In this document: one piece after another, positions 11,925 through 64,000 of the stretch | Position numbering within the stretch: the stretch's first letter is position 1 | How the letters are laid out: each line of letters opens with the position of its first letter | Assembly: GCF_015686655.1 (NCBI RefSeq) | Contig: NZ_JADPMP010000001.1 | Coordinates: 186,001 to 250,000, forward strand | Direction: 5' to 3' | From: Pontibacter sp. FD36 | GTDB taxonomy: Bacteria > Bacteroidota > Bacteroidia > Cytophagales > Hymenobacteraceae | Length of the DNA stretch: 64,000 bases | Notes under the pieces: generated by a model | Databases searched by the model: none | Seen by the model: only the letters and a program-made list of their open reading frames with translations | What the model was told of the DNA's origin: nothing | Position numbers and translations under genes: made by a program

Positions 11925-11959
11925 AGAATTAGTAATGACGAATGATGAATTTAGAATGA
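11925..11959. repeat. Single arm of TAATGA-type AT-rich repeat
   Basis: A run of AATGA/TAATGA units (AGTAATGACGAATGATGAAT and following) lies just upstream of the dnaE start. It resembles the left arms of the paired elements at 54956, 55811 and 63198. No matching opposite arm is clear here. Confidence 0.55.
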
Positions 11960-18690: not shown

Positions 18691-18842
18691 ATTAAATTGT
18701 TAAATGGTTGATGGTTGAATGGCTAATTGTTTAAAACAGGTGTATCTCCAGACTATAAATCATCCAGATGTGAAATCCTAATTAATGGCTCCACTTATAT
18801 GTGCATACACAGGGTATAACAATTTAACCATGTAGCAATTTA
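18691..18842. repeat. AT-rich element with ATTGTTAAATGG-type inverted arms
   Basis: Left arm 18691-18732 (ATTGTTAAATGGTTGATGG, then GAATGGCTAATTG) and, inverted, right arm 18818-18842 (AACAATTTAACCATGTAGC, then AATTTA) flank about 85 bases. The right arm supplies the TAA stop of the M16 gene at 18840-18842. The same architecture occurs at 27498-27703. Confidence 0.6.
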
Positions 18843-20078
18843 GCCCTTAACAGGTACGTAATTCAGAAAACTCAGCTTCTCTTCTTGCAGCACGTCGTTG
18901 GCAATGTCGATCAGGTCTTTGGCGGTGGTATTTTTGATCTGGTCGAAGATCTCGTTCAGGGTGTCGATGTGGCCCTGATCCAGGATGCTCTTGCCCATCA
19001 TCATCATTAGCCCCATGTTGCTCTCTTCGGCCATGGCCAACTGACCCATGAGTTGCTCTTTAGCAGTGTGCAGTTGCAGCGAGCCCAGCTGTTTTTCGCG
19101 CAGTTTCTTCAGTTCTTTCAGAACCAGTGAAGTGGTGCGCTTCAGCTGCTTCTTCTCCGTTCCGAAGTAGATAGACAGCAGACCTGTGTCGATATAGGTG
19201 GCGTAGTTGGCATCGATGGTATACACCAAACCGTGCTTTTCGCGGACGGCCAAGTTCAGGCGCGAGTTCATGCCCGGGCCACCCAGCAGGTTTACCAGCA
19301 TAAAGAAAGGTATACGACGTTCATCGTTGAGTGCGTAAGCCGGAGATCCAATCACACAGTGTGCCTGAGAGATCGGTTTCTCGAATGTCACCGTCTTAGG
19401 TTTATACTGTTCGAAGACAATGCGCTGACGTGGCCTGCTGATGTGCGGAATGTCAGCCAGGTACTTTTCGGCCAGTTTTACCACTTTCTCAAACGGCAGG
19501 TTGCTCACCGAACAAAACACTAGCGCCTCAGTGCTCAGGTTGTCTTTGATAAAACGCTGGAAGTCGTCTTTCTTAAAGCCCGATACGCTCTCTTTTGTAC
19601 CCAGTATGTTGTTGCCAAGCGGATGACCGTCGAACACCACATTGTCAAACTCGTCGACGATGGCCTCTTCCGGTGTGTCCAGGTACATGGCCATCTCCTC
19701 GAGTATCACGCCGCGTTCTTTCTCAATTTCCTTCTCAGGGAAAACAGAGTGGAACGTGATATCAGTAAGTAGTTCGAAAGACTTCTCGAAGTGCTTATCG
19801 AGGACGGAGCTGTAAAAGCAGAGCTTTTCTTTGGTGGTATAGGCGTTCAGTTCGCCGCCTACCGACTCCAGTCTGTTCAGGATGTGGAATGACTTGCGCT
19901 TGGCAGTACCTTTGAAGGCCATGTGCTCCCAGAAGTGGGCCAGACCTAGCTGTTCAGGTTGCTCGTCGCGGCTGCCTATGTCCAGGATAAAGCCGCTGTG
20001 CGCAATTTTGGTGTGTAGTACTTGTTTGTGAACGATTCGAATACCGTTCGGCAATGTATGAATATGATAATCAAGCAT
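18840..20078 (-). CDS. M16 family zinc metallopeptidase
   Basis: A 412-residue pitrilysin/mitochondrial-processing-type peptidase. The inverted zinc motif HFWEH is at residues 48-52 (within LAHFWEHMAFKGT), and the third ligand region is ERGVILEEMAMYLD, with Glu127/128. The Bacteroidota one-domain-pair form of about 410 residues is normal. The C-terminal domain has the R/Y pair region around GGPGMNSRLNLAVREKHGLVY. It likely degrades or processes small peptides, and no signal peptide is seen. Two TAnnTTTG boxes lie 20-35 bases upstream of the ATG. The stop codon falls inside an AT-rich repeat arm. Confidence 0.93.
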   Translation of the reverse strand: MLDYHIHTLPNGIRIVHKQVLHTKIAHSGFILDIGSRDEQPEQLGLAHFWEHMAFKGTAKRKSFHILNRLESVGGELNAYTTKEKLCFYSSVLDKHFEKSFELLTDITFHSVFPEKEIEKERGVILEEMAMYLDTPEEAIVDEFDNVVFDGHPLGNNILGTKESVSGFKKDDFQRFIKDNLSTEALVFCSVSNLPFEKVVKLAEKYLADIPHISRPRQRIVFEQYKPKTVTFEKPISQAHCVIGSPAYALNDERRIPFFMLVNLLGGPGMNSRLNLAVREKHGLVYTIDANYATYIDTGLLSIYFGTEKKQLKRTTSLVLKELKKLREKQLGSLQLHTAKEQLMGQLAMAEESNMGLMMMMGKSILDQGHIDTLNEIFDQIKNTTAKDLIDIANDVLQEEKLSFLNYVPVKG

Positions 20079-27497: not shown

Positions 27498-27703
27498 TGA
27501 ATTGTTAAATTGTTAGATAGCTAAATGGCTAAATTGTTGAATTGTTAAATTATTGAAATACCTTTTCTGAAGCAGGTAAGAAGAAACTCCTAAACGAAAG
27601 GTATGTGAAGCCCGCACAGAACTTAAGAGCAGGTATAGCCGCAATTCACTAAGTGAGCCCTGTAACGCTCAACAATTTAACAATCCAACGATTTAACTCT
27701 TCA
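27498..27703. repeat. AT-rich element with ATTGTTAAAT-type inverted arms
   Basis: Left arm 27498-27555 (units such as TGAATTGTTAAATTGTTAG, GCTAAATGGCTAAATTGTTG) and inverted right arm 27668-27703 (CTCAACAATTTAACAATCCA, then ACGATTTAAC) flank about 110 bases that carry an AGGTATAG. It is the same family as 18691-18842. It ends two bases before the stop codon of the next gene. Confidence 0.6.
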
Positions 27704-27704
27704 A

Positions 27705-29183
27705 TCAAAATGAAATCTTGTTGATGTAGAACACATTGCGGTTGGGACCATTGGGGTTGCGTATGCGCTGGAAACCGAAGGCGGCAAAATGGGAACCATA
27801 CCAGCGGATCAATCCTGGCATATCTGTGGTGAGGATTTTCTCTTCTTTTTCGTAGGGCAGGAGCTCCACAGAGGTTTCTTTATCTGTAAACTTGTTCTGC
27901 TCCATTTGGCGGTACACGACCTTGCCGCGATCAGGGTAGGCCATCACGACGCGTCCATCCGGTAGTCCGGCGACCTCCACGGCATGTGTGAGATCAGGCG
28001 TTAGCACATCACGAAGCGGGAAGGTGTTGTCCCACAGCAGGATGCCATCCCGGTCAAAACCCAAAGCAATGGCGTGCGTGCGCTTGTAAGCCTGTGCAAC
28101 CCGTTCCAGCCCTCTGACCCGACTGTCAAAGTAGCCACTGCTGTTACGATACTGAGGGAAGTAAACCTCCGCAGCCAGTACATATCCGTTGGGTGTCGGT
28201 ATCAAATCGTGCAGGAGCATGCGGTAGCGCTGCAGCGGTTCCTTGCCGGCGGCAATACGGGCAAACTCACGTTTGCGGGTGCGCTCTTCACGACGGGGCT
28301 TCATGTACTTAAAGAAATTCTGAAGATCCAGCAGCGAGTAAAACTCACCTTCCACGATTTTGGAGATGACAGGCGCCGTGAAAAAGCCCTGAACAAATCG
28401 AAGATCCCGTACGCCATACGTGCCGATGAGCATACGGGAGAGCGTGTCGCCGGGGGTGATCTCAGCGTTGAGCAAACTTTTGTCCTGAGGCTGAAGGATA
28501 AAGTAGTTCTGCTGCAGCTTGCCTTCGGAGTCAAAGCTTTTCACCTGCAGGCGCGATATCCGGCGGTTGGTTTCGGCCAGCACCACATCTACACGGCCGT
28601 GCACATGGTCGGTATGCAGGTCTGAGAAAGAAGACTCGTCGCCGTAGAGTGCGGGCAGCATCACGGGCTGTGGTTTCTCAGGGTCCAGGTATAGCAGGCT
28701 TGGCTTTGTGTCGTAGCTGTTGCCGGTGATCAGGAAATGATTGCCGCGCAGTACATTGAGTTCATAGATATACTCTGCCTTTTCGAGCACGACCTCGCTC
28801 TTGGTCAGAGCGCCACTGCCCAGGTGTAGCCGCACAAAGGTATAGAGTGTCGGTTTGGCCGCCTGAAAGATAAGGTAGGTATAAGGAGCCTCGGTATAGT
28901 GGCGTATGAATTCAAACTCAGACTTCAGGTCGATCTTGCTGGTCCATACCCGTTCCAGCTGCGTGTCGTATTTCTCCAGCGTAAAGTCAGGCTCCTTTGC
29001 CCAGCTGTCGGATTTGCGGCTGTAGACAAGCAGGCTGCTGTCTGGCAGGGCCATCACCTCTACACGGCTGTTTTCGAGCTCGTAGGGTAGCTCCAGGCGC
29101 ACAGGCTGGCTAGGCTCCTGAGCCCATAGCAGGGCAGGTGCCAGCACAGCAAAGCAGAACAGCAAAGGGCGCAGGTATAGCAT
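27705..29183 (-). CDS. Exported protein of unknown function
   Basis: A 492-residue protein with a signal peptide (MLYLRPLLFCFAVLAPALLW, AQ at the cleavage). The mature part is beta-rich with repeated blade-like strands (LPDSSLLVYSRKSDSW, YTYLIFQAAKPTLYTFVRLH, FLITGNSYDTKPSLLYLD, AIALGFDRDGILLWDNTFPL and GLPDGRVVMAYPDRGKVVYR). This is consistent with a beta-propeller-like fold, but the family is unrecognised. It ends close to an AT-rich repeat. The next gene upstream, EVE, lies 106 bases away in the same direction. Confidence 0.75.
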   Translation of the reverse strand: MLYLRPLLFCFAVLAPALLWAQEPSQPVRLELPYELENSRVEVMALPDSSLLVYSRKSDSWAKEPDFTLEKYDTQLERVWTSKIDLKSEFEFIRHYTEAPYTYLIFQAAKPTLYTFVRLHLGSGALTKSEVVLEKAEYIYELNVLRGNHFLITGNSYDTKPSLLYLDPEKPQPVMLPALYGDESSFSDLHTDHVHGRVDVVLAETNRRISRLQVKSFDSEGKLQQNYFILQPQDKSLLNAEITPGDTLSRMLIGTYGVRDLRFVQGFFTAPVISKIVEGEFYSLLDLQNFFKYMKPRREERTRKREFARIAAGKEPLQRYRMLLHDLIPTPNGYVLAAEVYFPQYRNSSGYFDSRVRGLERVAQAYKRTHAIALGFDRDGILLWDNTFPLRDVLTPDLTHAVEVAGLPDGRVVMAYPDRGKVVYRQMEQNKFTDKETSVELLPYEKEEKILTTDMPGLIRWYGSHFAAFGFQRIRNPNGPNRNVFYINKISF

Positions 29184-41492: not shown

Positions 41493-41537
41493 TTCAATAA
41501 TAAATCACTCATTCACTCAATCAGAAATCACTCAATT
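41493..41537. repeat. AATCACTCA-type AT-rich repeat
   Basis: AATCACTCATTCACTCAATC and AATCACTCAATTCC form a run of degenerate 7-9 base units similar in style to the right arms (TCATTACTCATTA) of the elements at 55.1 and 55.9 kb. No opposite arm is clear. Confidence 0.35.
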
Positions 41538-53991: not shown

Positions 53992-54021
53992 AAAAAAGCC
54001 CTCCGTTTCCGAAGGGCTTTT
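53992..54021 (-). terminator. Stem-loop terminator of desaturase gene
   Basis: A 9-bp stem AAAAGCCCT (53994-54002) with AGGGCTTTT (54013-54021); the minus strand ends in a T run. Just downstream of the gene ending at 54030. Confidence 0.85.
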
Positions 54022-54029
54022 CTATATGA

Positions 54030-54800
54030 TTAAGCGTTGGCTTTTGCTCTTGGTGCTTTGGCAGCCTTAACCTTCACTGGTTTCAGCTTAATGATGCTAA
54101 GCTTGTCCAGTGTCCAGATTACTGGCCAGGTTGGGTCTACTTCCCACCACTTCACGCCGAAGTTCACACGGTTAGGCAGTTTGTGGTGGTTGTTCTGGAA
54201 CAACTCACCGCCTGTCAGGAAGTCGAAGAAAAGCGAGTTGCGCGACTTGTCATTGTTGTCGAAATTCTGGTAGCCATACTTATGACCGCTCCAGTTTACG
54301 ATAGCACCGTGTACCGGGCCCATCAGGAAGTGAAGCGGCAACAGCAGGAACATCCACCACTGCGTAGCAAAGGCGATGTAGAACAGCACATAAGCCACGC
54401 CCCAGCCGATACGAGAAATTTTCGAATCCCCGATCTTCTCCAGTGCTGGCCACATCGGGTAATCGCCATCAAAACGGCGTTCCGGCTCCACGCGGTGGTT
54501 GAGCACATCGTTGTAAATGTTTTTGGTTTTCCACATCATCGCAAATGCGTTGTTGGAATAATGCGGCGAATGCGGATCACGCTCTGTGTCAGAGAAGGCG
54601 TGGTGCATGCGGTGCAGAATAGCATAAGCACGTGGCGACAGGAAAGAAGAGCCCTGTGCGATGTACGTCAGCAGGTAAAAAGCCTTTTCCCAGAACGGGT
54701 TCATGGTGAACATCTTGTGCGCTGCGTAACGGTGCAGGAAGAAAGTCTGCACAAACAGAGAAAGGTACCAGTGCAGTACAAAGAAAATAAGTATAGCCAT
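54030..54800 (-). CDS. Fatty acid desaturase (acyl-CoA delta-9 type)
   Basis: A 256-residue membrane di-iron desaturase. The three histidine boxes are HRYAAH (23-28), HRMHHAFSDTERDPHSP (63-79) and GELFQNNHHKLPN (198-210). Helices lie at about 1-22, 38-52, 132-150 and 150-168. It introduces a double bond into acyl-CoA or an acyl-lipid to keep membranes fluid. The third box has a Gln where many family members have His, which also occurs in bacterial relatives. A minus-strand TAATTTTG at 54876-54883 is a possible -7 box. Terminator downstream. Confidence 0.93.
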   Translation of the reverse strand: MAILIFFVLHWYLSLFVQTFFLHRYAAHKMFTMNPFWEKAFYLLTYIAQGSSFLSPRAYAILHRMHHAFSDTERDPHSPHYSNNAFAMMWKTKNIYNDVLNHRVEPERRFDGDYPMWPALEKIGDSKISRIGWGVAYVLFYIAFATQWWMFLLLPLHFLMGPVHGAIVNWSGHKYGYQNFDNNDKSRNSLFFDFLTGGELFQNNHHKLPNRVNFGVKWWEVDPTWPVIWTLDKLSIIKLKPVKVKAAKAPRAKANA

Positions 54801-54955
54801 TAAGCGGTTATTATGTTAAAGTGATCAATAACTGATTCAGGTATAGCAGAGACAAAAGCAGTCACCAAGCCTCCGCAAAATTACGATGTGATTCTATAGA
54901 AATAATAAAATCCGGTATAAAAGTTCAGAAAGATGATAAATATCAGTTTTATAGA

Positions 54956-55133
54956 ATGATTAATGAGTAATGAATAATTAATGCGGAGTGAGGAATGTAG
55001 AGTTTTAATAGAGAGGTGAGTAAGGTTTACAAAGGCTTATGGGATGTCGGGGCAAGGTATAACCAAGGTTCCCATTGCTTACTCATTATCATTTGTTGCT
55101 ATGATTCATTAGTCATTAATCACTACTCATTAT
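54956..55133. repeat. AT-rich element with TAATGA-type inverted arms
   Basis: Left arm 54956-54983 (ATGATTAATGAGTAATGAAT, then AATTAATG) and inverted right arm 55078-55133 (TTACTCATTATC, ATTAGTCATTAATCACTAC, CATTAT) flank about 95 bases that carry an AGGTATAA. The right arm contains the TAA stop of the RluA gene at 55130-55132. It fills the 329-base gap 54801-55129. Confidence 0.7.
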
Positions 55134-55804
55134 AAAAACGGTTTCCAGATAGGAGCCGCCGGCAGTGGGGCAGTAACTTTAACCATGGTTTTGAGGGTAG
55201 GGTGCTCAAATTGGAGGCTGCGGGCATGCAGGGCGATACTCTTGTCGGGTAGTGGTTTGCTGGCGCCATACCTCAGGTCACCGACAATGGGGCAGTTCAT
55301 AGAGGCCAGTTGCACTCGGATCTGGTGCGGGCGACCGGTAACAGGATTTACCTCCAGCAGGTAATTGTTATCATGCTGCCCCACCAGGCGATAACTTAGT
55401 TCAGAGCGTAGGCCGCTTTTATTCTCACGCGCATAAGCCTTGGTCACATTGCGACTGCTGTCCTTGATGAGCCAGTGCACGAGCGTCTGCTCAGGTATAG
55501 CTGGCCTGTTGAGCACGATGGCCCAATAGGTCTTGATAGTCTTTTTGCTTCGGAAGAGCTCGTTGAGACGGGTGAGAGCTTTGGAAGTTTTTGCAAGCAG
55601 CACGACACCGCTCACAGGTCTGTCAAGGCGGTGCACCACACCAATGTACACGTTACCCGGCTTGTTATACTTCTCTTTGATATAGGCCTTGGCCAGGTCG
55701 GCGAGGCATTCGTCGCCTGTTTCATCTCCATGCACCAGTAAGCCAGCCGGCTTATTTACTACCAGCACATGGTTATCCTCAAAAAGAACATCGAGCAAAG
55801 CCAT
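55130..55804 (-). CDS. RluA-family RNA pseudouridine synthase
   Basis: A 224-residue pseudouridine synthase without an S4 domain. The catalytic motif is GVVHRLDRPVSGVVLLAKT (about 56-74), with the active Asp in HRLDRPVSG. PHQIRVQLASMNCPIVGDLRYG and SIALHARSLQFEHP are the family's later motifs. The N-terminus opens with LFEDNHVLVVNKPAGLLVH. Length is typical of short RluA members; the RNA target cannot be called. The stop codon lies in an AT-rich repeat arm. Confidence 0.94.
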   Translation of the reverse strand: MALLDVLFEDNHVLVVNKPAGLLVHGDETGDECLADLAKAYIKEKYNKPGNVYIGVVHRLDRPVSGVVLLAKTSKALTRLNELFRSKKTIKTYWAIVLNRPAIPEQTLVHWLIKDSSRNVTKAYARENKSGLRSELSYRLVGQHDNNYLLEVNPVTGRPHQIRVQLASMNCPIVGDLRYGASKPLPDKSIALHARSLQFEHPTLKTMVKVTAPLPAAPIWKPFL

Positions 55805-55810
55805 AGGCTT

Positions 55811-55931
55811 TTAATAATGAATAATGATGAATGAATAATTAAGGAGATGGTCAGAAAGGTCAATGAACAACTCTTAATGAAGTAATTATTCATCATTAGT
55901 CATTACTCATTAACCATTATTCATTCATTAA
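55811..55931. repeat. AT-rich element with TAATGA-type inverted arms
   Basis: Left arm 55811-55840 (TTAATAATGAATAATGATGA, then ATGAATAATT) and inverted right arm 55876-55931 (ATGAAGTAATTATTCATC, ATTAGTCATTACTCATT, ATTCATTCATTA) flank about 35 bases. The right arm provides the TAA stop of panB at 55928-55930. Confidence 0.7.
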
Positions 55932-56746
55932 TACGCTTCTTTGTCGTTCGGGAAGTCTTTGCTTTTTACGTCTTTCACGTAGTTCTGCACCGCGTCAGTC
56001 ATGATAGTGTGCAGGTCGGCGTAGCGACGCAGGAAACGGGGTTTGAACTCCTTGTTGATTCCCAGCATGTCGTGCACTACCAGCACCTGTCCATCCACGT
56101 GCGGACCGGCGCCTATACCTATGATTGGAATCTGCAGCTTTTCGGCTACACGTTTTGCCAGCTCCGAAGGGATCTTCTCCAGAACAATTGAGAAACAGCC
56201 TAATTCCTGTAGCAGGAGCGCATCGTCGATCAGCTTTTGAGCCTCTGCTTCTTCTTTCGCCCGCACGGTGTAGGTGCCGAACTTGTAGATGGACTGTGGG
56301 GTCAGGCCCAGGTGGCCCATCACCGGCACACCAGCGCTCAGAATACGGATGATCGATTCTTTGATCTCAGCACCGCCTTCCAGCTTGATGCCGTGTGCAC
56401 CCGACTCCTTCATAATGCGGATAGTAGAGCGCAGCGCTTCTGAAGAGTTGCCCTGGTAAGAGCCGAACGGTAGGTCCACCACCACAAAAGCACGGTTCAC
56501 ACCGCGGATTACTGAAGAGGCATGGTAGATCATTTGGTCCAGCGTAATAGGGAGCGTTGTCTCATGCCCGGCCATTACATTGGAGGCAGAGTCGCCAACG
56601 AGTAGCACGTCAACGCCGGCAGCGTCCAGAATGGTGGCCATGGAATAGTCGTAAGCCGTGAGCATGGAGATTTTCTCACCGCGCTCTTTCATATTCTGCA
56701 GCTGGTGCGTGGTTACTTTTTTTACGTCGCTTTTATGAACAGACAT
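55928..56746 (-). CDS. panB: 3-methyl-2-oxobutanoate hydroxymethyltransferase
   Basis: A 272-residue TIM-barrel enzyme, the first step of pantothenate synthesis: it transfers a hydroxymethyl group from 5,10-methylene-THF to alpha-ketoisovalerate. Start ATG 56746 ([15 protein letters not shown]); the open frame extends to 56806. Motifs include [37 protein letters not shown] (Asp/Mg site), [26 protein letters not shown] and [17 protein letters not shown] with the metal/general base Glu. The terminal [20 protein letters not shown] is also conserved. Not adjacent to panC or panD. Confidence 0.97.
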
Positions 56747-56790
56747 AGGATGCTGGTTTGAGTTTGATTCAAAATTATAAAAATCAAAAC

Positions 56791-56823
56791 AAAAACAGCC
56801 ACCCAATTTTCTGGAGTGGCTGT
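56791..56823 (-). terminator. Stem-loop terminator of LptD-like gene
   Basis: ACAGCCAC (56795-56802) pairs with GTGGCTGT (56816-56823), with T-rich flanks on the minus strand. It lies just after the gene ending at 56831 and before the panB start region. Confidence 0.8.
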
Positions 56824-56830
56824 TCGGAGT

Positions 56831-59536
56831 TTATCTGAAGTTCATGCCTGATCTGTTTCTGGTCAGGCGCAGGTCGCGCAGCAGGGCAGATCGTGCGTTG
56901 ATGGTCACGTTGTAGCCGCGCATCAGACCAAATGGTCGCCAGCCGATGCTCATCTCCCAGCAGTGCAGGTCGCGGTAGATATCGATGCTGGCGTTGGAAA
57001 TGTTCTGGTTCGTGAAGTCATACCCGGCCATGTAGCCAAACTTCCACTTGTCGGTCAGGTTCAGGGTGCCTTGCATACCGATGTTCTGTGTCAGGCTTGG
57101 CTGTGTCTGTGTACCGGTGGCCGGAGCATAGAAAATGGTATAGTCCAGGTTCAGCGTCCATGGAATGTTGAAGTCCACGTAATCCGGCAAAAACTGGTCG
57201 TTCGGGTTCAGCATGCCGGGCAGGTTAGTGGGAGGGGGCACGTTGGTAGACCGCGCCGCCGGGTTAAAATTGGCCCGTACACTCAGGTTAGCATTGGTTA
57301 GCCTGGCCAGTTTAAAACCAGGCCCTTCCAGCATGTAGCGATCAATAGCACGGTCACCTGCTGGGTTGAGTTGGTAAGGACTGAAGGTAGATGTAAAGTT
57401 TACATCAAACACCTGGAACAGGCGCGTGTTCATGCTAACGTTTATATTGGAGAGCCTCATAGAGTCAGCTGCCAGGTTATAGGAACCTCCTATATTCAGG
57501 TTGTCGATCAGGCTCACCTTCTCAGACTTAGCCTCTGTGGAGTCACTGCGCGAGCGCACTTTCATCTCCACACGGTTGTTGATCTGCATACTCAGGCTGC
57601 TTTGCAAGCCCCCTGAAGGCACGTTTCCATTGAAGCGTGGCAGGGTCTGGAAAATGGGCTGGTTCGTCAGCGAGTCTATACCTACCTGGGTTGTTTGCGT
57701 GAAACCGAAGCGGTTCTCGTCGCCGAAGTTAGGGCGGTAGCCATAGCTGATGCTTGGGATCATGGTATGGCGGATGGCCTCTACCCGCTTGCTCTTAGGA
57801 AACTGCACGGTACCGTACACGGTCGTGTTGAGTGAGGCACCGGCACCGTACTCGTATACCCTGCCAAAGCTTGCCGTGTCGATGCGCACTGCCTGCTGCT
57901 CGTCGTCATAGGTATAGGTCAGTTTGTTGTCGAACCATGACTCACGGTAATTCACGTTCGGCGTCAGGTTGAAAAAGCGGAATATTTTATAGTTACCCAA
58001 ACCGATCGTGAAGTTATGATCAGCGCTTTTACGGCCGTTCTTCCAGAGGCGATCGAGGTTGTCGAAGTTGAGCGCAAAAGAAGTATCCCTGGCGGTGCCA
58101 TCAATAACAGGCAAATTGTTTAGCCTACGGGCTACTACCTGGTTCGATACCTCGTTGCGGGCCCGCACATTGTAGCCGAAGGTAAAGTTTTCATACCACT
58201 TGCCAGTAGGCACATTGTCCGAGAAGAGCTCATACAAGCTCATCTGTGTCATGGCAAAGTTAAGGTCAGGCAGCGTGAAGCGCATGATGGTAGGAGCCGG
58301 CCTGCCGTCTGCCGTAAAGCCACCATTGTTCTGCCCCTGGCTCAGCGTAGCGGTGTAGCTGAAAGGCGTGTTCTGAATGTTCTTCTGGTAAGTGATTGTC
58401 GAGTTGAAAGTCGGTGTCAGGTAGTTGTTCGGGTTATTGAAGTTCACCCGGTTGTGCTGACTGCTACCTGCCCGCACATTGGCTGTAAAGCGACCGCGGC
58501 CAGGCTTCTGCACCGGGCTGTGTGACCAGGTTACGAAAGCTGTTTTCTGCGTAGGCGGGAGGCCACTCAGACTATTCGTAGAGCGGTTCGGATCCGCAAC
58601 ATCAGCTTCGTCATTTTTAAAGTAGTCGTAGCTGATGTTGAAGTTGCCACGGTAGGAGTAGCGTTTGATGTAAGTGTTGTCAACCGTTACCTTGTATCCG
58701 CCCAGTGAGTAGATATCGCCGGTGATGCGGGTGCCGATGTAGTCGTTCAGGGCGAGGTAATAACCGCCATTGCTCAGGTAAAAGCCACGGGCACGTGATT
58801 CGCCGAAGGTCGGCATGATCACGCCGGACGAGCGTTTGTTCTTCGGCGTCGGGAAGAGGCCGAACAAAAAGCCGAGCGGCGTCGGTATGTCGGCGATCAC
58901 AAGGTTAAAAGGACCCGACATGATCTTATCGTTTGGTATAGCCTTGATCTTGCCGGCGCTGATGTAGAAGTGCGGGTGCTCCAGGTTACAGGTAGTATAC
59001 TTGTTGTGCAGACCGAAAATCTCGTTTGCCTCATTTTTTTTCACCACCTCGGAATGTATATACCCTTCGCCTTGTTGCGTTACTACTTCAGAGATCCGGC
59101 CTCGTCTGGTTTTGTAGTTATAGGCGATACGCTTGGCTGCATAACTCTCTGCCCCGTCTCTAAATACCGGAGTACCAGTCTCCTGGCCTGTGGAGTCCAC
59201 CAGAGTGGTAGCGGTTAGGGTGTTGAGGTCGTAATCGATCTGGATGTAGGCAGCCGCCAGTTCCATGGTGCCATAGTCAATTTTGGCATCGCCGTACAGG
59301 TGCACTACCTTACGGTCTACCTCAAAGAGGATGGAATCTCTGGCAGAATAATTGATTGTCGTCTCGATGTCGCCCTGTGGTGCGGGAACCACAAGCGAAT
59401 CCTGAGGCGGCGAGATGTTGACAGTGTCTTTTGGCGTAGCTGTCGTGGTGGGGCGGCGCACCCGCTGACCCAGTACAGGCTGGGCAGAAAGTACGGCGAG
59501 CTGCACCAGCAGCAAAAAAATCAAAATGTAGCGCAA
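56831..59536 (-). CDS. LptD-like LPS assembly outer-membrane protein
   Basis: A 901-residue exported protein. The signal peptide is followed by a proline/threonine-rich linker (VRRPTTTATPKDTV). An OstA/LptA-like beta-jellyroll follows (SILFEVDRKVVHLYGDAKID, TMELAAAYIQIDY), then the plug-and-barrel region. The barrel has strand-rich, Asn/Tyr-rich repeats (GNFNISYDYFKN, FTFGYNVRARNEV, INARSALLRDLRLTRNRSGM). It matches the Bacteroidota form called 'putative LPS assembly protein LptD', which exports LPS to the surface. The amidase and MCE genes run divergently. Only a minus-strand TAACTTTG box is seen for a promoter. Confidence 0.9.
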   Translation of the reverse strand: MRYILIFLLLVQLAVLSAQPVLGQRVRRPTTTATPKDTVNISPPQDSLVVPAPQGDIETTINYSARDSILFEVDRKVVHLYGDAKIDYGTMELAAAYIQIDYDLNTLTATTLVDSTGQETGTPVFRDGAESYAAKRIAYNYKTRRGRISEVVTQQGEGYIHSEVVKKNEANEIFGLHNKYTTCNLEHPHFYISAGKIKAIPNDKIMSGPFNLVIADIPTPLGFLFGLFPTPKNKRSSGVIMPTFGESRARGFYLSNGGYYLALNDYIGTRITGDIYSLGGYKVTVDNTYIKRYSYRGNFNISYDYFKNDEADVADPNRSTNSLSGLPPTQKTAFVTWSHSPVQKPGRGRFTANVRAGSSQHNRVNFNNPNNYLTPTFNSTITYQKNIQNTPFSYTATLSQGQNNGGFTADGRPAPTIMRFTLPDLNFAMTQMSLYELFSDNVPTGKWYENFTFGYNVRARNEVSNQVVARRLNNLPVIDGTARDTSFALNFDNLDRLWKNGRKSADHNFTIGLGNYKIFRFFNLTPNVNYRESWFDNKLTYTYDDEQQAVRIDTASFGRVYEYGAGASLNTTVYGTVQFPKSKRVEAIRHTMIPSISYGYRPNFGDENRFGFTQTTQVGIDSLTNQPIFQTLPRFNGNVPSGGLQSSLSMQINNRVEMKVRSRSDSTEAKSEKVSLIDNLNIGGSYNLAADSMRLSNINVSMNTRLFQVFDVNFTSTFSPYQLNPAGDRAIDRYMLEGPGFKLARLTNANLSVRANFNPAARSTNVPPPTNLPGMLNPNDQFLPDYVDFNIPWTLNLDYTIFYAPATGTQTQPSLTQNIGMQGTLNLTDKWKFGYMAGYDFTNQNISNASIDIYRDLHCWEMSIGWRPFGLMRGYNVTINARSALLRDLRLTRNRSGMNFR

Positions 59537-59573
59537 CTTCTTCAGACTTCCCTAAAGTTTTATTTATTTTGTA

Positions 59574-59581
59574 CAAAGTTA
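59574..59581 (-). promoter_or_regulatory. -7 box of LptD-like gene
   Basis: A minus-strand TAACTTTG matches TAnnTTTG, 37 bases upstream of ATG 59536 in the 74-base divergent gap. No -33 partner seen. Confidence 0.45.
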
Positions 59582-59610
59582 TTGTTTTTAACTTTTAACT
59601 AACGAGCGTT

Positions 59611-60393
59611 GTGAGAAATATTGTTACTATTTCAGTTCTGGCCCTAAGTTTACTTCTACTCTCTTCCAGCAAGCTCGAATACCGTAAGGCATACAAGCTG
59701 CGCACGGTAGTAATCGATGCGGGTCATGGCGGCAAAGACATAGGCTGTAACGGCAAAGTTTCACATGAGGCTGATGTAGCCTTGAAGTTAGCGCTGCAGG
59801 TTGGAGCGTTAATTGAGAAGAACGTGCCTGACGTGAAAGTTGTTTACACCCGCAAGGATGATACCTTCGTGGAGTTGATCGACCGTGCCGGAATTGCCAA
59901 CAAGAACAACGCGGACCTGTTCATCTCTATCCACCTCAACGCTGGACCGCCTTCCGCTTTCGGTACCGAGACCTATACCATGGGACTCCACACCACCAGT
60001 GGCAACCTGGCGGTAGCCAAGCGGGAGAACGCTGTAATTCTGCAGGAGGATGACTACAAGGAGAAATACGGCGGATTTGACCCGAACTCCCCACAGAGCC
60101 ACATCATGTTTGCCCTGCACCAGAGTGCCTACATCGACAACAGCCTGCGATTCGCTCAAAAGATCGAAAACGAATTTAAAAATCGGGTTGGTCGCACAAG
60201 CCGTGGCGTGAAGCAGGCGGGATTCCTGGTGCTCTGGAAATCCTACATGCCGAGTGTGCTTATTGAGGCAGGTTTCCTCACAAACCCCGCCGAAGAAAAA
60301 TTCCTTAACGATAAAACAGGTCAGACGTATATGGCATCAGGCATATACCGAGCCTTCAAAGAATACAAGCAAGAGCTGGAGGCCATGAACTAA
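59611..60393 (+). CDS. N-acetylmuramoyl-L-alanine amidase (Amidase_3)
   Basis: A 260-residue zinc amidase that cuts the bond between muramic acid and the peptide stem. GTG start at 59611. A hydrophobic signal (VLALSLLLLSSS) precedes the domain. Zinc ligands are His39 (VVIDAGHGGKD), Glu53 (KVSHEADVALKL) and His106 (FISIHLNAG), with the catalytic Glu217 in SVLIEAGFLTNPAE. Length is a bare catalytic domain. It precedes the MCE gene by 22 bases, so it is probably co-transcribed, and is divergent from the LptD-like gene, which fits a cell-envelope module. Confidence 0.95.
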   Translation: MRNIVTISVLALSLLLLSSSKLEYRKAYKLRTVVIDAGHGGKDIGCNGKVSHEADVALKLALQVGALIEKNVPDVKVVYTRKDDTFVELIDRAGIANKNNADLFISIHLNAGPPSAFGTETYTMGLHTTSGNLAVAKRENAVILQEDDYKEKYGGFDPNSPQSHIMFALHQSAYIDNSLRFAQKIENEFKNRVGRTSRGVKQAGFLVLWKSYMPSVLIEAGFLTNPAEEKFLNDKTGQTYMASGIYRAFKEYKQELEAMN

Positions 60394-60415
60394 TGCAAAA
60401 AGCAAACTCACCTAC

Positions 60416-61471
60416 GTGAAACTATCGAAAGAAATTAAAGTTGCCCTGCTAGGTATAGTGGCAATTCTGATACTGTATTTCGGGTATGACTTCCTGAAAG
60501 GATCCTCGATTTTCTCTAAATCTAACACCTACCATGTAGTGTATGACAATGTAGATGGCCTGACACCCTCTAATCCTGTTATTCTGAATGGCATACAAGT
60601 AGGGCAGGTTAAGGATATGACGCTGCTCACTGATCGTGGTAACATGGTACGCGTAGATATTGAGGTGCGGAAAGATCTCCAGATCGGAGACTCCACCATC
60701 GCCAGCCTCGGCAACTCTGACCTTTTGGGTAGCAAAGCCATCACATTGCACCTGCGCAACAGCACCCAGATGTTTGATGGCGGTGAAGAACTGATCGCTT
60801 TTAAAGAAACCAGCATCGCCGACATGATCTCTTCTAAGTCGGTGCCGGTGATCGACAAGGTAGATACCACCCTGGCCCGCGTTAACCGACTGCTTGACAG
60901 CGAAGCGAAGGGCAATATTCAACAGATCCTGGCCAACTCCAACAAGACCACGGAGATGATCAACGACATTCTACGCGAGAACCAGCGCAATATCAATCAG
61001 ATCACTGGCAACCTGAGTCAACTTACCTCAGCTCTGAAGCAGACACAAAAGAACATCGATCGGCTTGCTTTAAACATGACTGAGATCACAGATACGCTCA
61101 AGCAGGTGGAAATTAAGAAACTGGTGCGCGATGCCAACTCAGCTGTGAACGAGCTGGAAACAACTATCGCCAAACTCAATTCAAACCAAGGCTCTTTGGG
61201 CCGCCTGATGAACGACGAGGAGCTGTATCAGAACATGAACCGCTCCACAGAAGCGCTCAACCTGTTGCTGCGTGATATACAGGCATACCCGAAACGCTAT
61301 GTGCAGTTCTCGCTCATTGGCCGCAAAGACAGGTATAAGGTGGATGCCACGGGCCGTGTAATCACACTGGAGGAGGTAAAGGAGATGCAGGACGCCAACC
61401 CGGATGAGTTTCGTCGCCCTGCTCCAGACTCTGTAGAGGTAGTACCTGCTGACACCACAAAAAGGCAATAG
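60416..61471 (+). CDS. MlaD/MCE family protein
   Basis: A 351-residue MCE-domain protein, GTG start at 60416. One N-terminal membrane helix (VALLGIVAILILYFGYDFLKG) is followed by the MCE domain (about 38-115): VYDNVDGLTPSNPVILNGIQ, VGQVKDM, LLGSKAITLHL. A helical part (about 150-280) shows repeated Asn/Leu-rich coiled coil (NQITGNLSQLTSALKQTQKN). It is typical of phospholipid-transport MlaD homologues that bridge inner and outer membrane. The permease and ATPase partners (MlaE/MlaF) are not in the window. A polar C-terminal tail closes it. Confidence 0.92.
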   Translation: MKLSKEIKVALLGIVAILILYFGYDFLKGSSIFSKSNTYHVVYDNVDGLTPSNPVILNGIQVGQVKDMTLLTDRGNMVRVDIEVRKDLQIGDSTIASLGNSDLLGSKAITLHLRNSTQMFDGGEELIAFKETSIADMISSKSVPVIDKVDTTLARVNRLLDSEAKGNIQQILANSNKTTEMINDILRENQRNINQITGNLSQLTSALKQTQKNIDRLALNMTEITDTLKQVEIKKLVRDANSAVNELETTIAKLNSNQGSLGRLMNDEELYQNMNRSTEALNLLLRDIQAYPKRYVQFSLIGRKDRYKVDATGRVITLEEVKEMQDANPDEFRRPAPDSVEVVPADTTKRQ

Positions 61472-61489
61472 TGCATCTTATAAAAATTG

Positions 61490-61497
61490 TATATTTG
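61490..61497 (+). promoter_or_regulatory. -7 box between MCE gene and carboxylase
   Basis: TATATTTG at 61490-61497 matches TAnnTTTG. It lies 19 bases past the MCE stop and 65 bases before the carboxylase ATG. A -33 element was not found. Confidence 0.4.
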
Positions 61498-61499
61498 TG

Positions 61500-61526
61500 A
61501 AATCCGCCCCTAAAGCGGATTTTTCA
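61500..61526 (+). terminator. Hairpin between MCE and carboxylase genes
   Basis: AAATCCGC (61500-61507) with GCGGATTT (61515-61522) and a 7-base loop, then TTTC. It could end the amidase-MCE transcript, or lie in the leader of the carboxylase gene given the -7 box at 61490. Confidence 0.65.
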
Positions 61527-61561
61527 TTGTAAGTAGTCCCCTTATTTATAATAACCCCTTC

Positions 61562-63190
61562 ATGGATATCGAATTCAATAAGAACGAAGACTCTCTCAAA
61601 CAGCTGAGTTTCCAGCTGAAAAGCAAACTGAAGAAAGTACACCTGGGCGGCGGCGAGAAGCGCATCGCAAAAGAGCATGCCAAAGGTAAAATGACAGCCC
61701 GCGAACGCATCGACTACCTGCTCGACGAAGGAACGGAGTTCCTGGAAGTAGGAGCTTTTGCAGGCGAAGGTATGTACCAGGAAGTAGGCGGCTGCCCAAG
61801 CGGCGGCGTGGTGACAGGTATAGGTTACATCAAAGGCCGCCAGTGCGTGGTAGTAGCCAACGATGCGACCGTGAAAGCCGGTGCCTGGTTCCCGATCACA
61901 GCCAAGAAAAACCTGCGAGCACAGGAAATCTCTATTGAGAACAAACTGCCTATCGTATACCTGGTAGATAGCGCCGGTGTGTTCCTGCCGATGCAGGATG
62001 AAATCTTCCCGGACAAAGAGCACTTTGGACGCATGTTCCGAAACAATGCTGTGATGAGCTCGATGGGTATCGTGCAGATTGCTGCTATCATGGGAAGCTG
62101 CGTGGCCGGCGGTGCGTACCTGCCGATCATGAGCGACGAGGCCCTGATTGTAGAAGGAACTGGTTCCGTGTTCCTGGGCGGTTCTTACCTGGTAAAGTCA
62201 GCCATCGGCGAGACCATTGACAACGAAACACTGGGTGGGGCATCTACCCACTGCGAGATATCGGGCGTAACCGATTACAAGTGCAAAGACGATAAAGAGG
62301 CGCTGGATCATATCCGCACCATTTTCGACAAAATGGGCGACAACCCAAAAGCTGGTTTCAGCCGTGTAGAACCTGCTGCTCCGAAACTCGACGAGAAAGA
62401 GATTTACGGTATGCTGCCAGCCGACCGCACCAAGCCATACGACATGATGGACATCATCAACCGTTTGGTCGACAACTCTGAATTTGAGCCTTACAAAGAG
62501 CTGTATGGTCAGTCACTGATTTGCGGACTGGGCCGTATCGATGGTTGGGCAGTAGGCATTGTGGCTAACCAGCGCAAGATCGTGAAGAGCAAGAAAGGCG
62601 AAATGCAAATGGGGGGCGTGATTTACTCTGACTCGGCTGACAAGGCTGCCCGGTTTATCATGAACTGCAACCAAAAGAAAATTCCGCTGGTGTTCCTGCA
62701 TGACGTGTCAGGCTTTATGGTAGGCAGCAAGGCTGAGCACGGTGGCATCATTAAAGACGGGGCCAAAATGGTGAATGCCATGGCTAACTCGGTTGTGCCG
62801 AAGTTCACGATCATCTTGGGCAACAGTTACGGTGCTGGCAACTACGCCATGTGCGGCAAAGCCTACGACCCACGCCTGATCTACGCCTGGCCATCGGCGC
62901 AGCTGGCGGTGATGAGTGGTGCTGCAGCGGCCAACACCCTGTTGCAGATTCAGGTTTCTGCCCTGAAAGCAAAAGGAGAGGAGATTACGCCGGAGGCCGA
63001 GAAAGAGTTACTGGAGCGCATCACGGCCAAGTATAACGAGGAGTTGTCGCCATACTACGCCGCAGCCCGCCTGTGGATAGACGGCATCATCGACCCGCTG
63101 GAGACGCGCAAAGTTATCTCCATGGGTATAGAAGCCGCCAACCATGCGCCAATCGAGAAGCCTTATAACGTAGGTGTCATTCAAACGTGA
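61562..63190 (+). CDS. Acyl-CoA carboxylase carboxyltransferase (beta) subunit
   Basis: A 542-residue carboxyltransferase of the propionyl/methylcrotonyl-CoA carboxylase type: it moves CO2 from biotin to an acyl-CoA. The N-terminal half has GKMTARERIDYLLDEGTEFL, then VGGCPSGGVVTGIGYIKGRQ and VYLVDSAGVFLPMQ (oxyanion region). MGSCVAGGAYLPIMSDEALI is the family signature. The second half has IPLVFLHDVSGFMVGSKAEH and a second oxyanion region, NSYGAGNYAMCGKAYDPRL. The C-terminus ends in the dimer helices. Biotin carboxylase is not adjacent. Substrate (acetyl-, propionyl- or methylcrotonyl-CoA) is not settled by sequence alone. Confidence 0.93.
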   Translation: MDIEFNKNEDSLKQLSFQLKSKLKKVHLGGGEKRIAKEHAKGKMTARERIDYLLDEGTEFLEVGAFAGEGMYQEVGGCPSGGVVTGIGYIKGRQCVVVANDATVKAGAWFPITAKKNLRAQEISIENKLPIVYLVDSAGVFLPMQDEIFPDKEHFGRMFRNNAVMSSMGIVQIAAIMGSCVAGGAYLPIMSDEALIVEGTGSVFLGGSYLVKSAIGETIDNETLGGASTHCEISGVTDYKCKDDKEALDHIRTIFDKMGDNPKAGFSRVEPAAPKLDEKEIYGMLPADRTKPYDMMDIINRLVDNSEFEPYKELYGQSLICGLGRIDGWAVGIVANQRKIVKSKKGEMQMGGVIYSDSADKAARFIMNCNQKKIPLVFLHDVSGFMVGSKAEHGGIIKDGAKMVNAMANSVVPKFTIILGNSYGAGNYAMCGKAYDPRLIYAWPSAQLAVMSGAAAANTLLQIQVSALKAKGEEITPEAEKELLERITAKYNEELSPYYAAARLWIDGIIDPLETRKVISMGIEAANHAPIEKPYNVGVIQT

Positions 63191-63197
63191 TTTTGGT

Positions 63198-63353
63198 TAG
63201 TAATGAGTAATGACGAGTGAATAATGATTAATTAGAAATTAGTAATTGAACGTGGCGAATGGTTAATAAAGGATGAAGAATTCTTAATTATTAGGACATT
63301 ACATTCATCACCTCCTATTCACTCATCACTATTCATTACTCATTAATCATTAT
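63198..63353. repeat. AT-rich element with TAATGA-type inverted arms, left of the S23-like gene
   Basis: Left arm 63198-63245 (GTAATGAGTAATGACGAGTG, AATAATGATTAATTAG) and inverted right arm 63299-63353 (ATTACATTCATCAC, ATTCACTCATCACTATTC, ATTACTCATTAATCATT) flank about 55 bases. It lies between the carboxylase gene and the four-helix-bundle gene at 63416. Same family as 54956 and 55811. Confidence 0.7.
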
Positions 63354-63415
63354 TTCCGCATAGTTTGAACTTCTTTTAGGAATGCTGAATTTAAAGTGAA
63401 GTTTAAAACAGCAGA

Positions 63416-63775
63416 ATGGAAAAGAAAACAAACATCATTCAAAACAAAACATTCGATTTTGCAGTGCAGATCGTACTGCTGTGTAAGAAATTAAGTCGAG
63501 AAAATAAGGAGTACGTACTTACGAAACAGCTTTTGCGAAGTGGAACTTCTATTGGGGCAAATGTCGAAGAAGCAATAGGAGGTATCTCCACTGCCGACTT
63601 CTCAGCCAAGATGAGCATAGCTTACAAAGAAGCACAGGAAACGAGTTATTGGTTACGCTTACTATATGCTACGGAGTATTTGGATAAAGAAAGTTTCGAC
63701 TCGGTGCATCAGGCTTACGTAGAAATAAGTAAGATTCTATTTTCTATTCTAAGGTCTTCTGGAAGAATCAGATGA
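63416..63775 (+). CDS. Four-helix-bundle protein of the 23S rRNA intervening-sequence (S23/IVP, TIGR02436) type
   Basis: A 119-residue all-helical protein of the family first seen inside 23S rRNA insertions of Leptospira and Coxiella. The signature LLRSGTSIGANVEEA is present, with KTFDFAVQIVLLCKKLSREN before and YKEAQETSYWLRLLY after, followed by a fourth helix (SFDSVHQAYVEISKILFSIL). No rRNA is nearby, so this is a stand-alone copy; its cellular role is unknown. A related fold is the DGR accessory protein Avd, but no reverse transcriptase or template repeat is seen. It lies between TAATGA-type arms at 63198-63353 and 63790-63862, as if carried in an element. AT-rich compared with neighbours. 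Confidence 0.93.
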   Translation: MEKKTNIIQNKTFDFAVQIVLLCKKLSRENKEYVLTKQLLRSGTSIGANVEEAIGGISTADFSAKMSIAYKEAQETSYWLRLLYATEYLDKESFDSVHQAYVEISKILFSILRSSGRIR

Positions 63776-63789
63776 TTCCCTAAACAAAA

Positions 63790-63862
63790 AATTCATTACT
63801 AATTACTCACTATTCATTATTCATTCATCATTAATAATTACTCATTAATCATTACGCATTAT
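63790..63862. repeat. TAATGA-type arm right of the S23-like gene
   Basis: ATTCATTACTAATTACTCAC, TATTCATTATTCATTCATC and ATTACTCATTAATCATTACG form one long right arm, the complement style of the left arm at 63198-63245. It follows the gene stop (63775) by 14 bases and directly precedes the next start. Confidence 0.65.
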
Positions 63863-63863
63863 T

Positions 63864-64000
63864 TTGACAAAGAAGGAGATAAAGGCGCTGATCTCGCTGT
63901 TGGATGATATAGATTATGAGGTCGCGTCGCATGTAGAGCAGAAGATTGTGTCGCTGGGCGAAAGCATTATTCCCTTTCTGGAAGAGGAATGGGAGGAAAC
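63864..64000 (+). CDS. SirB1/transglutaminase-like protein, N-terminal part only
   Basis: The frame opens with TTG 63864 (no ATG in frame back to a stop at 63846) and runs off the window: 45 codons. The residues KKEIKALISLLDDIDYEV, QKIVSLGESIIPFLEEEW match the start of SirB1-N/transglutaminase-like proteins common in Bacteroidota, whose function is unclear. The start is uncertain because the leader is a repeat arm. Only the N-terminus is visible. Confidence 0.65.
   Translation, partial: MTKKEIKALISLLDDIDYEVASHVEQKIVSLGESIIPFLEEEWEE

Follow-up and report, generated by a model that had tools for sequence, protein, structure and literature searches.

An S23 four-helix-bundle gene of Pontibacter framed by inverted heptanucleotide arrays: a candidate family of foldback elements

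A short element built around a gene of the S23 / four helix bundle protein family was found in Pontibacter sp. FD36, in a 64-kb window (the whole stretch of DNA analysed, bases 186001-250000 of contig 11 of the 4.84-Mb genome; positions below are those of the window). Its intact gene is framed by inverted arrays of a degenerate 7-bp repeat, and such arrays, with units that differ from element to element, also flank S23 genes in other phyla. The reading that we favour, and hold to be moderately probable, is that these constitute a family of foldback elements with S23 as a trans-acting partner, laid out like the REPIN/RAYT system without a recognised recombinase. Its parts differ in strength: the architecture of the element is as firm as sequence allows, its mobility is likely, and we infer that the S23 protein acts on the arrays, as the best explanation of the covariation between repeat unit and protein together with the gene-less copies.

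The S23 element, about 665 bp long, fills a gap whose neighbours are a carboxyltransferase gene (61562-63190) and a transglutaminase-like gene (start, 63864). The original prediction, made from the letters of the stretch, had placed the gene in a frame of TAATGA-type inverted repeats; the frame was borne out, and the key feature of its arms proved to be one which that prediction lacked, a 7-bp period. The arms are degenerate tandem arrays, (TAATGAN)n on the left and (NTCATTA)n on the right. Tandem Repeats Finder (TRF) called period 7 at all seven arm positions, three at the S23 element and four at the gene-less elements described below, and exactly seven arrays in the window reached a lag-7 score of at least 11, and none of 20 first-order Markov controls contained one. 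The best inverted pair at the S23 element (63199-63246 with 63795-63842; 48 nt, 83% complementary) is a possible stem. Because an extra right-type arm lies between the left arm and the gene, the window copy resembles a gene-less hairpin with the gene and one more right arm after it. Folded as RNA, the element gave a z score of -2.27 (20 shuffles). The S23 gene is the only open reading frame (ORF) of at least 60 aa listed inside it, so it holds neither a tyrosine transposase of the RAYT kind nor any other transposase; the same gene is the only S23 match in the genome. No Rfam family matched within 54000-64000 of the window, and a known RNA family was rejected as an identity for the element.

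Gene-less copies of the same arm family, which had also been predicted, were confirmed at two sites by their period-7 arrays. One lies between a desaturase and a pseudouridine synthase gene (54955-55132) and the other between the pseudouridine synthase gene and panB (55813-55925); both carry the TAATGAN unit of the S23 element. As RNA, the first folds better than shuffled sequences (z -4.00), and for the second (z -4.35) 1 of 200 shuffles was equally good. A single arm claimed at position 11925 is only suggestive, falling under every threshold. Across the genome, the pattern (TCATTAN)3 with at most three mismatches gave 192 matches, compared with 119 for a backwards control, so the raw count is not all signal. 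The 100 listed places of these matches formed 24 clusters, and in each of the 12 clusters with both orientations the left-type arm preceded the right-type arm.

Table 1. Features of the S23 element and of related arrays in the window
Feature	Position	Strand	Details
Whole S23-bearing element	63198..63863	+	Order: left array, internal right array, S23 gene, outer right array
Left arm, period-7 TAATGAN array	63199..63247	+	TRF 63199-63246; lag-7 score 17.8
Internal right-type arm, period-7 NTCATTA array	63319..63352	+	TRF 63325-63352; lag-7 score 16.0
S23 / four helix bundle protein gene, intact, 119 aa	63416..63775	+	PF05635, TIGR02436, predicted fold
Outer right arm, period-7 NTCATTA array	63795..63861	+	TRF 63793-63861; lag-7 score 31.4
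Gene-less element	54955..55132	.	Arms 54955-54982 and 55101-55132; TRF 54955-54982 and 55106-55132
Gene-less element	55813..55925	.	Arms 55813-55842 and 55885-55925; TRF 55813-55839 and 55883-55925
Possible decayed single left-type arm	11927..11958	+	AATTAGTAATGACGAATGATGAAT; below every threshold (TRF, lag-7)

The window protein matched two S23 profiles, PF05635 (E 1.8e-28; 99.3 bits, curated cut-off 33.8) and TIGR02436 (E 4.5e-31; 107.3 bits, curated cut-off 24), and in the same searches no other domain family scored above its curated cut-off. The nearest named relatives are from P. ruber (80%; locus L033) and Pontibacter sp. Tf4 (78%; L034); G and L numbers are our labels for genomes and loci. 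The predicted monomer (mean predicted local distance difference test score, 91) is closest to the S23 four-helix bundles 2rld (Z 20.9) and 2gsc (Z 17.2). Next comes Avd of the diversity-generating retroelements (DGRs; 8ub7, Z 14.6; 4dwl, Z 13.5), with 107 residues aligned at 2.1 Å at the higher Z and about 14-15% identity; unrelated four-helix bundles score only slightly lower (Z about 13), and a Z near 13 can be chance. The ratio of nonsynonymous to synonymous substitution rates was computable for 1 of 10 S23 orthologue pairs (0.023), synonymous sites being otherwise saturated. Neither PADLOC nor PHROGs gave a match for the protein. A defence gene identity was rejected on the first of these results; a phage gene identity was rejected on the second, and 2 of 50,697 phage records match S23.

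S23 flanks were compared in several collections of loci: 31 from the window's genome and its relatives; a cross-phylum set, the best 80 of 551; 30 from the window's phylum; 29 from ten genomes of other phyla (30 loci from 42 matches, one without a recognisable gene, with 10 repeats of earlier loci); 20 from four Pontibacter genomes (4 of 4 matches in G001, 5 of 5 in G019, 3 of 4 in G317 and 8 of 9 in G017); and loci from 12 of 24 plasmid records and 1 of 2 phage records, hand-picked for spread over organisms. Lags of 4 to 13 were scored for flanks from the first four sources, with flanks of other genes and non-coding windows, both from the cross-phylum loci, as lag-7 controls. Lag 7 was best in 130/159 upstream and 112/157 downstream S23 flanks, compared with 96/1012 control gene flanks and 24/238 non-coding windows. 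An array was called at a fixed score of 11, set after the score distribution had been seen; the 99th percentile of control stretches was 33, a value raised by arrays that these stretches, taken from the same loci, contain. By this threshold a lag-7 array was present on at least one side of 65 of the 80 cross-phylum genes, 24 of the 31 genes from the window's genome and its relatives and 12 of the 30 phylum genes, compared with 22 of 251 control genes. Arrays stood on both sides of 35, 5 and 2 genes of these sets, respectively, and of 5 of 251 controls. Lag-8 arrays stood on at least one side of five phylum-set loci. Among 160 S23 loci, 123 had an arm scoring at least 11, at lag 7 in 112, lag 8 in 9 and lag 9 in 2. 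Plasmid-borne S23 genes had period-7 arrays on both sides in 12 of the 12 examined.

The linkage of arms to S23 genes in unrelated genomes, which the prediction had proposed to check for TAATGA-type arms, was seen as co-occurrence; TAATGA itself is not general, and the 7-bp (or 8- or 9-bp) unit varies by element. Since the unit differs from element to element, counting S23 genes without TAATGA arms, proposed with the prediction as its refutation, would mislead. A single TAATGA-specific element family was rejected, as units differ between loci. Base composition was rejected as the cause: AT-rich units also occur in the GC-rich loci L041 (62.5% GC) and L045 (62.8% GC), and units differ within one genome.

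The two arms of an element agree with each other. In an ungapped inverted match of left against right flanks, from which 6 loci were dropped for short flanks and 14 as repeats and the phage locus was left out, 121 of 182 S23 loci scored at least 16, compared with 131 of 2000 cross-locus flank pairs and 5 of 473 other genes. Within single genomes, a locus's own flank pair beat every other S23 locus in 18 of 20 cases (medians, 23 versus 10), and the two exceptions matched loci that belong to the same genome and have similar AATTANN units; in the plasmid set, the own match was best in 8 of 12. Seven of the eight loci examined in Pontibacter G017 each had a unit of their own (AGTTGTT, AATTACG, AATTATG, CAGTTAA, AATTAGG, TAATGAN and one period-8 unit), and the eighth was weak.

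The unit also follows the protein. For the 112 loci whose period-7 arm was clear, the distance between units rose with S23 protein distance; over 2852 cross-phylum pairs rho was 0.655, a value reached by 0 of 999 within-phylum permutations. Phylum labels were taken from record titles or from the genome containing the locus, and one of the 112 rows was wrong (L309, labelled Bacteroidota although its genome is the source of a Planctomycetes locus). Units of the AATTACG / AATAATG kind belong to one S23 clade across Bacteroidota, Cyanobacteria, Verrucomicrobia, Planctomycetes, Gemmatimonadota, Omnitrophota, KSB1 and others, and nine aligned members from outside Bacteroidota share 56-60% identity with the window protein. 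Unit length (7 or 8) changed 8 times on the S23 protein tree (FastTree), compared with at least 10 times in 300 shuffles; without two doubtful calls the figures were 7 and at least 9. Units of 9 bp (L305) and 8 bp (L296, L321) were also noted; the proteins of L305 and L321, both from cyanobacterial genomes, are 71% identical, yet their unit lengths differ. Co-inheritance of gene and arrays as one unit would explain the covariation, and specific recognition of the unit by the protein would fit it also.

Array numbers were then compared with S23 copy numbers in the 247 genomes of the window's phylum, of which 193 have S23 / four-helix-bundle genes; 34 match-less genomes were counted as S23-less from the overall tally. 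The pattern (ATTANNN)4 occurred in 84 of the 193 and in 4 of the 54 others (Fisher 2.7e-7, uncorrected for kinship), and its share by S23 copy number was 4/54 genomes with none, 7/34 with one, 10/37 with two or three, 30/66 with four to seven and 37/56 with eight or more. A period-8 pattern intended as a control (35 of 193 and 2 of 54) is not a clean one, because some S23 genes carry real period-8 arrays. Within the genus, S23 number and array hits correlated over 49 genomes (rho 0.48, p 5e-4). Two S23-less genomes had no array at or above the stricter threshold in 400 kb, and S23-bearing stretches had 1 to 10 per 100 kb, a biased contrast in that most of these stretches were chosen near S23 genes or known arrays. 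Three of the four S23-less genomes with (ATTANNN)4 contain long perfect arrays, and an inverted partner was called in none of the seven loci scanned. Long perfect heptamer arrays (ATTACTG, ATTAGTG and ATTAGCA) at L323, L325, L326 and L342, in three S23-less genomes, had no inverted partner in the stretch; these are probably ordinary tandem repeats of other origin.

Comparison of given sites showed turnover. Of 40 Pontibacter genomes with the flanking gene, 30 loci were read at the site of the S23 element. Five have an intact gene with TAATGAN-type arrays (lag-7 scores, 15.0-31.4); five have S23 remnants (tblastn) and no arrays (4-6.8); ten have a gene-less hairpin with a different unit (judged by eye to be of AAATTAG type; lag-7 score at least 10 in nine); four have neither gene nor array, the gap being short (100-113 bp); and the remaining six were not classifiable. 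Five genomes were also compared over 100 to 114 kb. The gene-less element at 54955-55132 is missing in G014, where both flanks are joined, giving one precise empty site of the sort that the prediction had named as support; the 30 loci read at the S23 site offer no clean one, since their gap sequence has diverged. G014, G009 and G028 have an element that is missing in G000 except for about 15 bases, and in G062 the gap is long with no array called. At the panB site, three genomes have TAATGAN and two a GAGTTAA-type unit. At another site, D, the arms have period 7 in G014 and G009 (scores 9 to 12.2) and weakly favour period 8 in G000 and G062 (lag-8 scores 8.2 to 9.6, both arms), while G028 is mixed (lag-8 score 9.2 on the left, 4.6 on the right). 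Copies thus appear and vanish, and arrays at one place also switch unit, as these site-by-site comparisons of presence and absence in Pontibacter demonstrate. In the gap between panB and the pseudouridine synthase gene of G014 (L149), a 16-bp direct duplication, AGCGTATTAATTTTAG, was seen at the panB end, beside the array.

Hairpins of a second period occur in the window. Gene-less period-8 hairpins lie at 27500-27710 (clear) and 18691-18850 (weak), with arms of TTAAATGG / AATTGTTA type. A similar unit (GTTAAATT) flanks an S23 gene (L357) of the relative G317, and the window's genome has no such S23 gene; in the relatives G014 and G009 the site at 18691-18850 carries period-7 arms. A single period-8 arm, AATCACTC, at 41503-41536, with no partner arm or gene seen there, has the unit of an S23 element (L355) of the relative G019 (GAGTGATT).

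In a search for movement of whole elements, 603 S23 locus pairs whose DNA is similar across the gene were compared. Similarity continued into both flanks, indicating the same site, in 248 pairs, stopped within 200 bp on both sides in 329, and was mixed in 26. In most of the 329 pairs the similarity ends where the gene does (medians, 2 bp past the start and 33 bp short of the stop), and in only 41 does it extend at least 15 bp into both flanks. The clearest case is that of L088 and L094, which have gene and arrays in common (80.4% over 449 nt) in differing surroundings. This test is weak evidence, because faster change of non-coding DNA would also stop similarity at gene ends.

A mutational origin alone would have slippage turn over the 7-bp arrays and quasi-palindrome correction (template switching) equalise the arms, with S23 as a passenger. 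In one survey, most genomes had heptamers as their most frequent class among the longer simple repeats, with slippage as the proposed mechanism (cited in PMC4679880). The arrays of different units that one gap holds in close relatives (sites C and D) and the presence of some arrays in S23-less genomes agree with such an origin. It does not, however, predict a link to one gene family across phyla, the cross-phylum covariation of unit and protein, or the differing matched units that the S23 genes of a single genome have around them, and we regard it as unlikely.

Several observations weigh against the reading of the arrays and S23 as one foldback family. No arm scored at least 11 at lag 7, 8 or 9 in 37 of the 160 S23 loci, left and right flanks matched below 16 in 61 of 182, and the S23 gene of one gut phage record has no array. 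The loci and sets are partly orthologous, so their counts are not all independent, and the genome counts ignore kinship. Three S23-less Pontibacter genomes have 11, 14 and 16 hits of (ATTANNN)3, and some S23-bearing ones have fewer (2, 3, 5 and 5); arrays therefore outlive S23 or do without it. The period-8 gene-less hairpins have no S23 partner in their own genome, whose sole S23 gene has period-7 arms. Plain co-inheritance without binding can also yield the covariation, the decay of arrays beside dead S23 copies may reflect age alone, and different units at orthologous sites can be read as in-place mutation rather than movement. To our knowledge S23 proteins have no known catalytic site. As to the suggestion of a small mobile element, the frame, the gene-less copies and the one empty site support it; on the other side, transposition itself was not seen in the compared genomes, nor was a target-site duplication, which the prediction had proposed to look for, including at the 54955-55132 empty site, where the flanks differ by substitutions.

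Among the closest known systems are the intervening sequences (IVS) of rRNA, inserts of foldback structure that in some cases contain an S23 ORF and that RNase III excises (PMC4990558). ORFs for the intervening-sequence protein have also been described in rRNA inserts of Candidate Phyla Radiation bacteria (PMC11270868). The window element shares with IVS the foldback arms around an S23-family gene and the PF05635 protein; unlike them, it lies between protein genes, outside rRNA, its arms are degenerate 7-bp tandem arrays, and it has many gene-less copies. A possible alternative, somewhat doubtful in our view and overlapping the foldback family as one way in which it might work, is an IVS-like parasite at the RNA level, that is, a neutral hairpin insert cut by RNase III, with S23 binding RNA and spread through RNA and a reverse transcriptase, of which the IVS of 23S rRNA would be a special case. 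The excision by RNase III of IVS, only some of which carry an S23 ORF (PMC4990558), is in its favour, as are the folding of the gene-less elements as RNA, better than shuffled sequences, and the resemblance of the predicted S23 model to Avd of the DGR reverse-transcriptase complex. That resemblance is modest evidence on its own, given the Z scores that helical bundles can reach by chance, and the element has no reverse transcriptase. The likeness to Avd lies in the four-helix-bundle fold of the model; the differences are the low identity and the absence from the window element of a reverse transcriptase or variable repeat.

REPIN/RAYT resembles the window element in its inverted doublets forming intergenic hairpins, its many gene-less copies and its one linked gene (PMC3116915). 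It differs in that the window protein is an S23 four-helix bundle and not a tyrosine transposase, and in that the arms here are tandem arrays whose unit varies between elements. Classical transposons and miniature inverted-repeat transposable elements (MITEs) differ in turn, there being no transposase in the full-length copy; a target-site duplication was not seen either, at an empty site whose flanks differ by substitutions. Heptanucleotide repeats have been reported without an evident transfer mechanism in Beggiatoaceae, Cyanobacteria and Bacteroidetes, with a repeat-binding protein suggested as a possible mobile element (PMC4679880). They have also been described from Xanthomonas and Nostoc; two Xanthomonas genomes contain 70 and 75 convergent pairs (PMC4692102). 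These repeats (TAACTGA in the first paper, GGGAATC-type in the second) are likewise 7-bp tandem units mostly between genes, with convergent inverted pairs in Xanthomonas; in contrast to the present elements, the terms "S23" and "four helix" are absent from the main texts of both papers. No report linking S23 or four-helix-bundle genes to heptamer arrays was found in the accessible literature, subscription journals and preprints lying outside the search. We rate the element as apparently a new kind, because it is not an IVS (being outside rRNA), not REPIN/RAYT (having no such transposase) and not a classical transposon or MITE; it seems to consist of two known parts not previously joined in the literature searched. 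By analogy it appears to work like IVS and REPIN/RAYT, though it is neither by their defining features.

A host-serving role was also weighed, in which S23 would be an RNA- or DNA-binding regulator, or part of a defence module, and the arrays its binding sites in operons. The elements do lie between neighbouring genes, a repeat-binding translational regulator has been proposed for the TAACTGA repeats (PMC4679880), and 5 of the 12 plasmid cases stand beside cas1, hsdS/hsdR or drmD. Against this, the Pontibacter neighbour genes tested are mostly metabolic, PADLOC gave no match, and presence varies among close relatives at the same gap (remnants, empty gaps); we consider such a role improbable. 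The plasmid S23 genes that adjoin defence genes (L368, L371, L378, L370 and L377) have cas1 beside them (with cas2 on the other side in two), or lie between hsdS and hsdR, or between drmD and an MmeI-type gene. In L075 and L049, the elements lie within or at the end of an apparent restriction specificity-subunit gene, and a 7-bp unit, read through, encodes the 7-residue peptide repeat ITNYELR.

Under the favoured reading, the window copy would be a full-length member, with its S23 gene between inverted arrays, and the shorter gene-less hairpins would be non-autonomous copies. The S23 protein, expected to be a pentamer like a solved relative, the homopentameric Xanthomonas homologue (PMC4990558), might recognise the hairpin formed by two arrays, as single-stranded DNA or RNA, in a unit-specific manner. 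Acting in trans, it would keep the arrays and spread the element by way of host replication, repair or reverse transcription. Joint change of the unit in both arms could arise from tandem slippage together with hairpin-templated copying between arms. Insertion between operon genes, or in rRNA in the case of IVS, would be tolerated because the transcript folds into a self-contained stem-loop. A bolder version, which we offer tentatively and by analogy, makes S23 the core of a class of transposase-free elements in which the protein itself would set the length and sequence of the unit and guide its copying into the two arms ("array writing", in which a reverse transcriptase or polymerase might take part, cf. 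Avd), thus maintaining and spreading the element; heptanucleotide repeats and the IVS of rRNA would then be its products.

If the foldback reading is correct, it would tie together S23 genes of unknown function, the heptanucleotide repeats of bacteria, for which no agent is known, and the IVS of rRNA. The question of S23 function would become directly testable, through binding of the protein to its own unit and erosion of arrays upon S23 loss. Should the protein specify the unit, a small protein would have a hitherto undescribed means of writing or preserving repetitive DNA. The recurrence of the layout around many S23 relatives in several phyla points to an unrecognised kind of compact genetic element.
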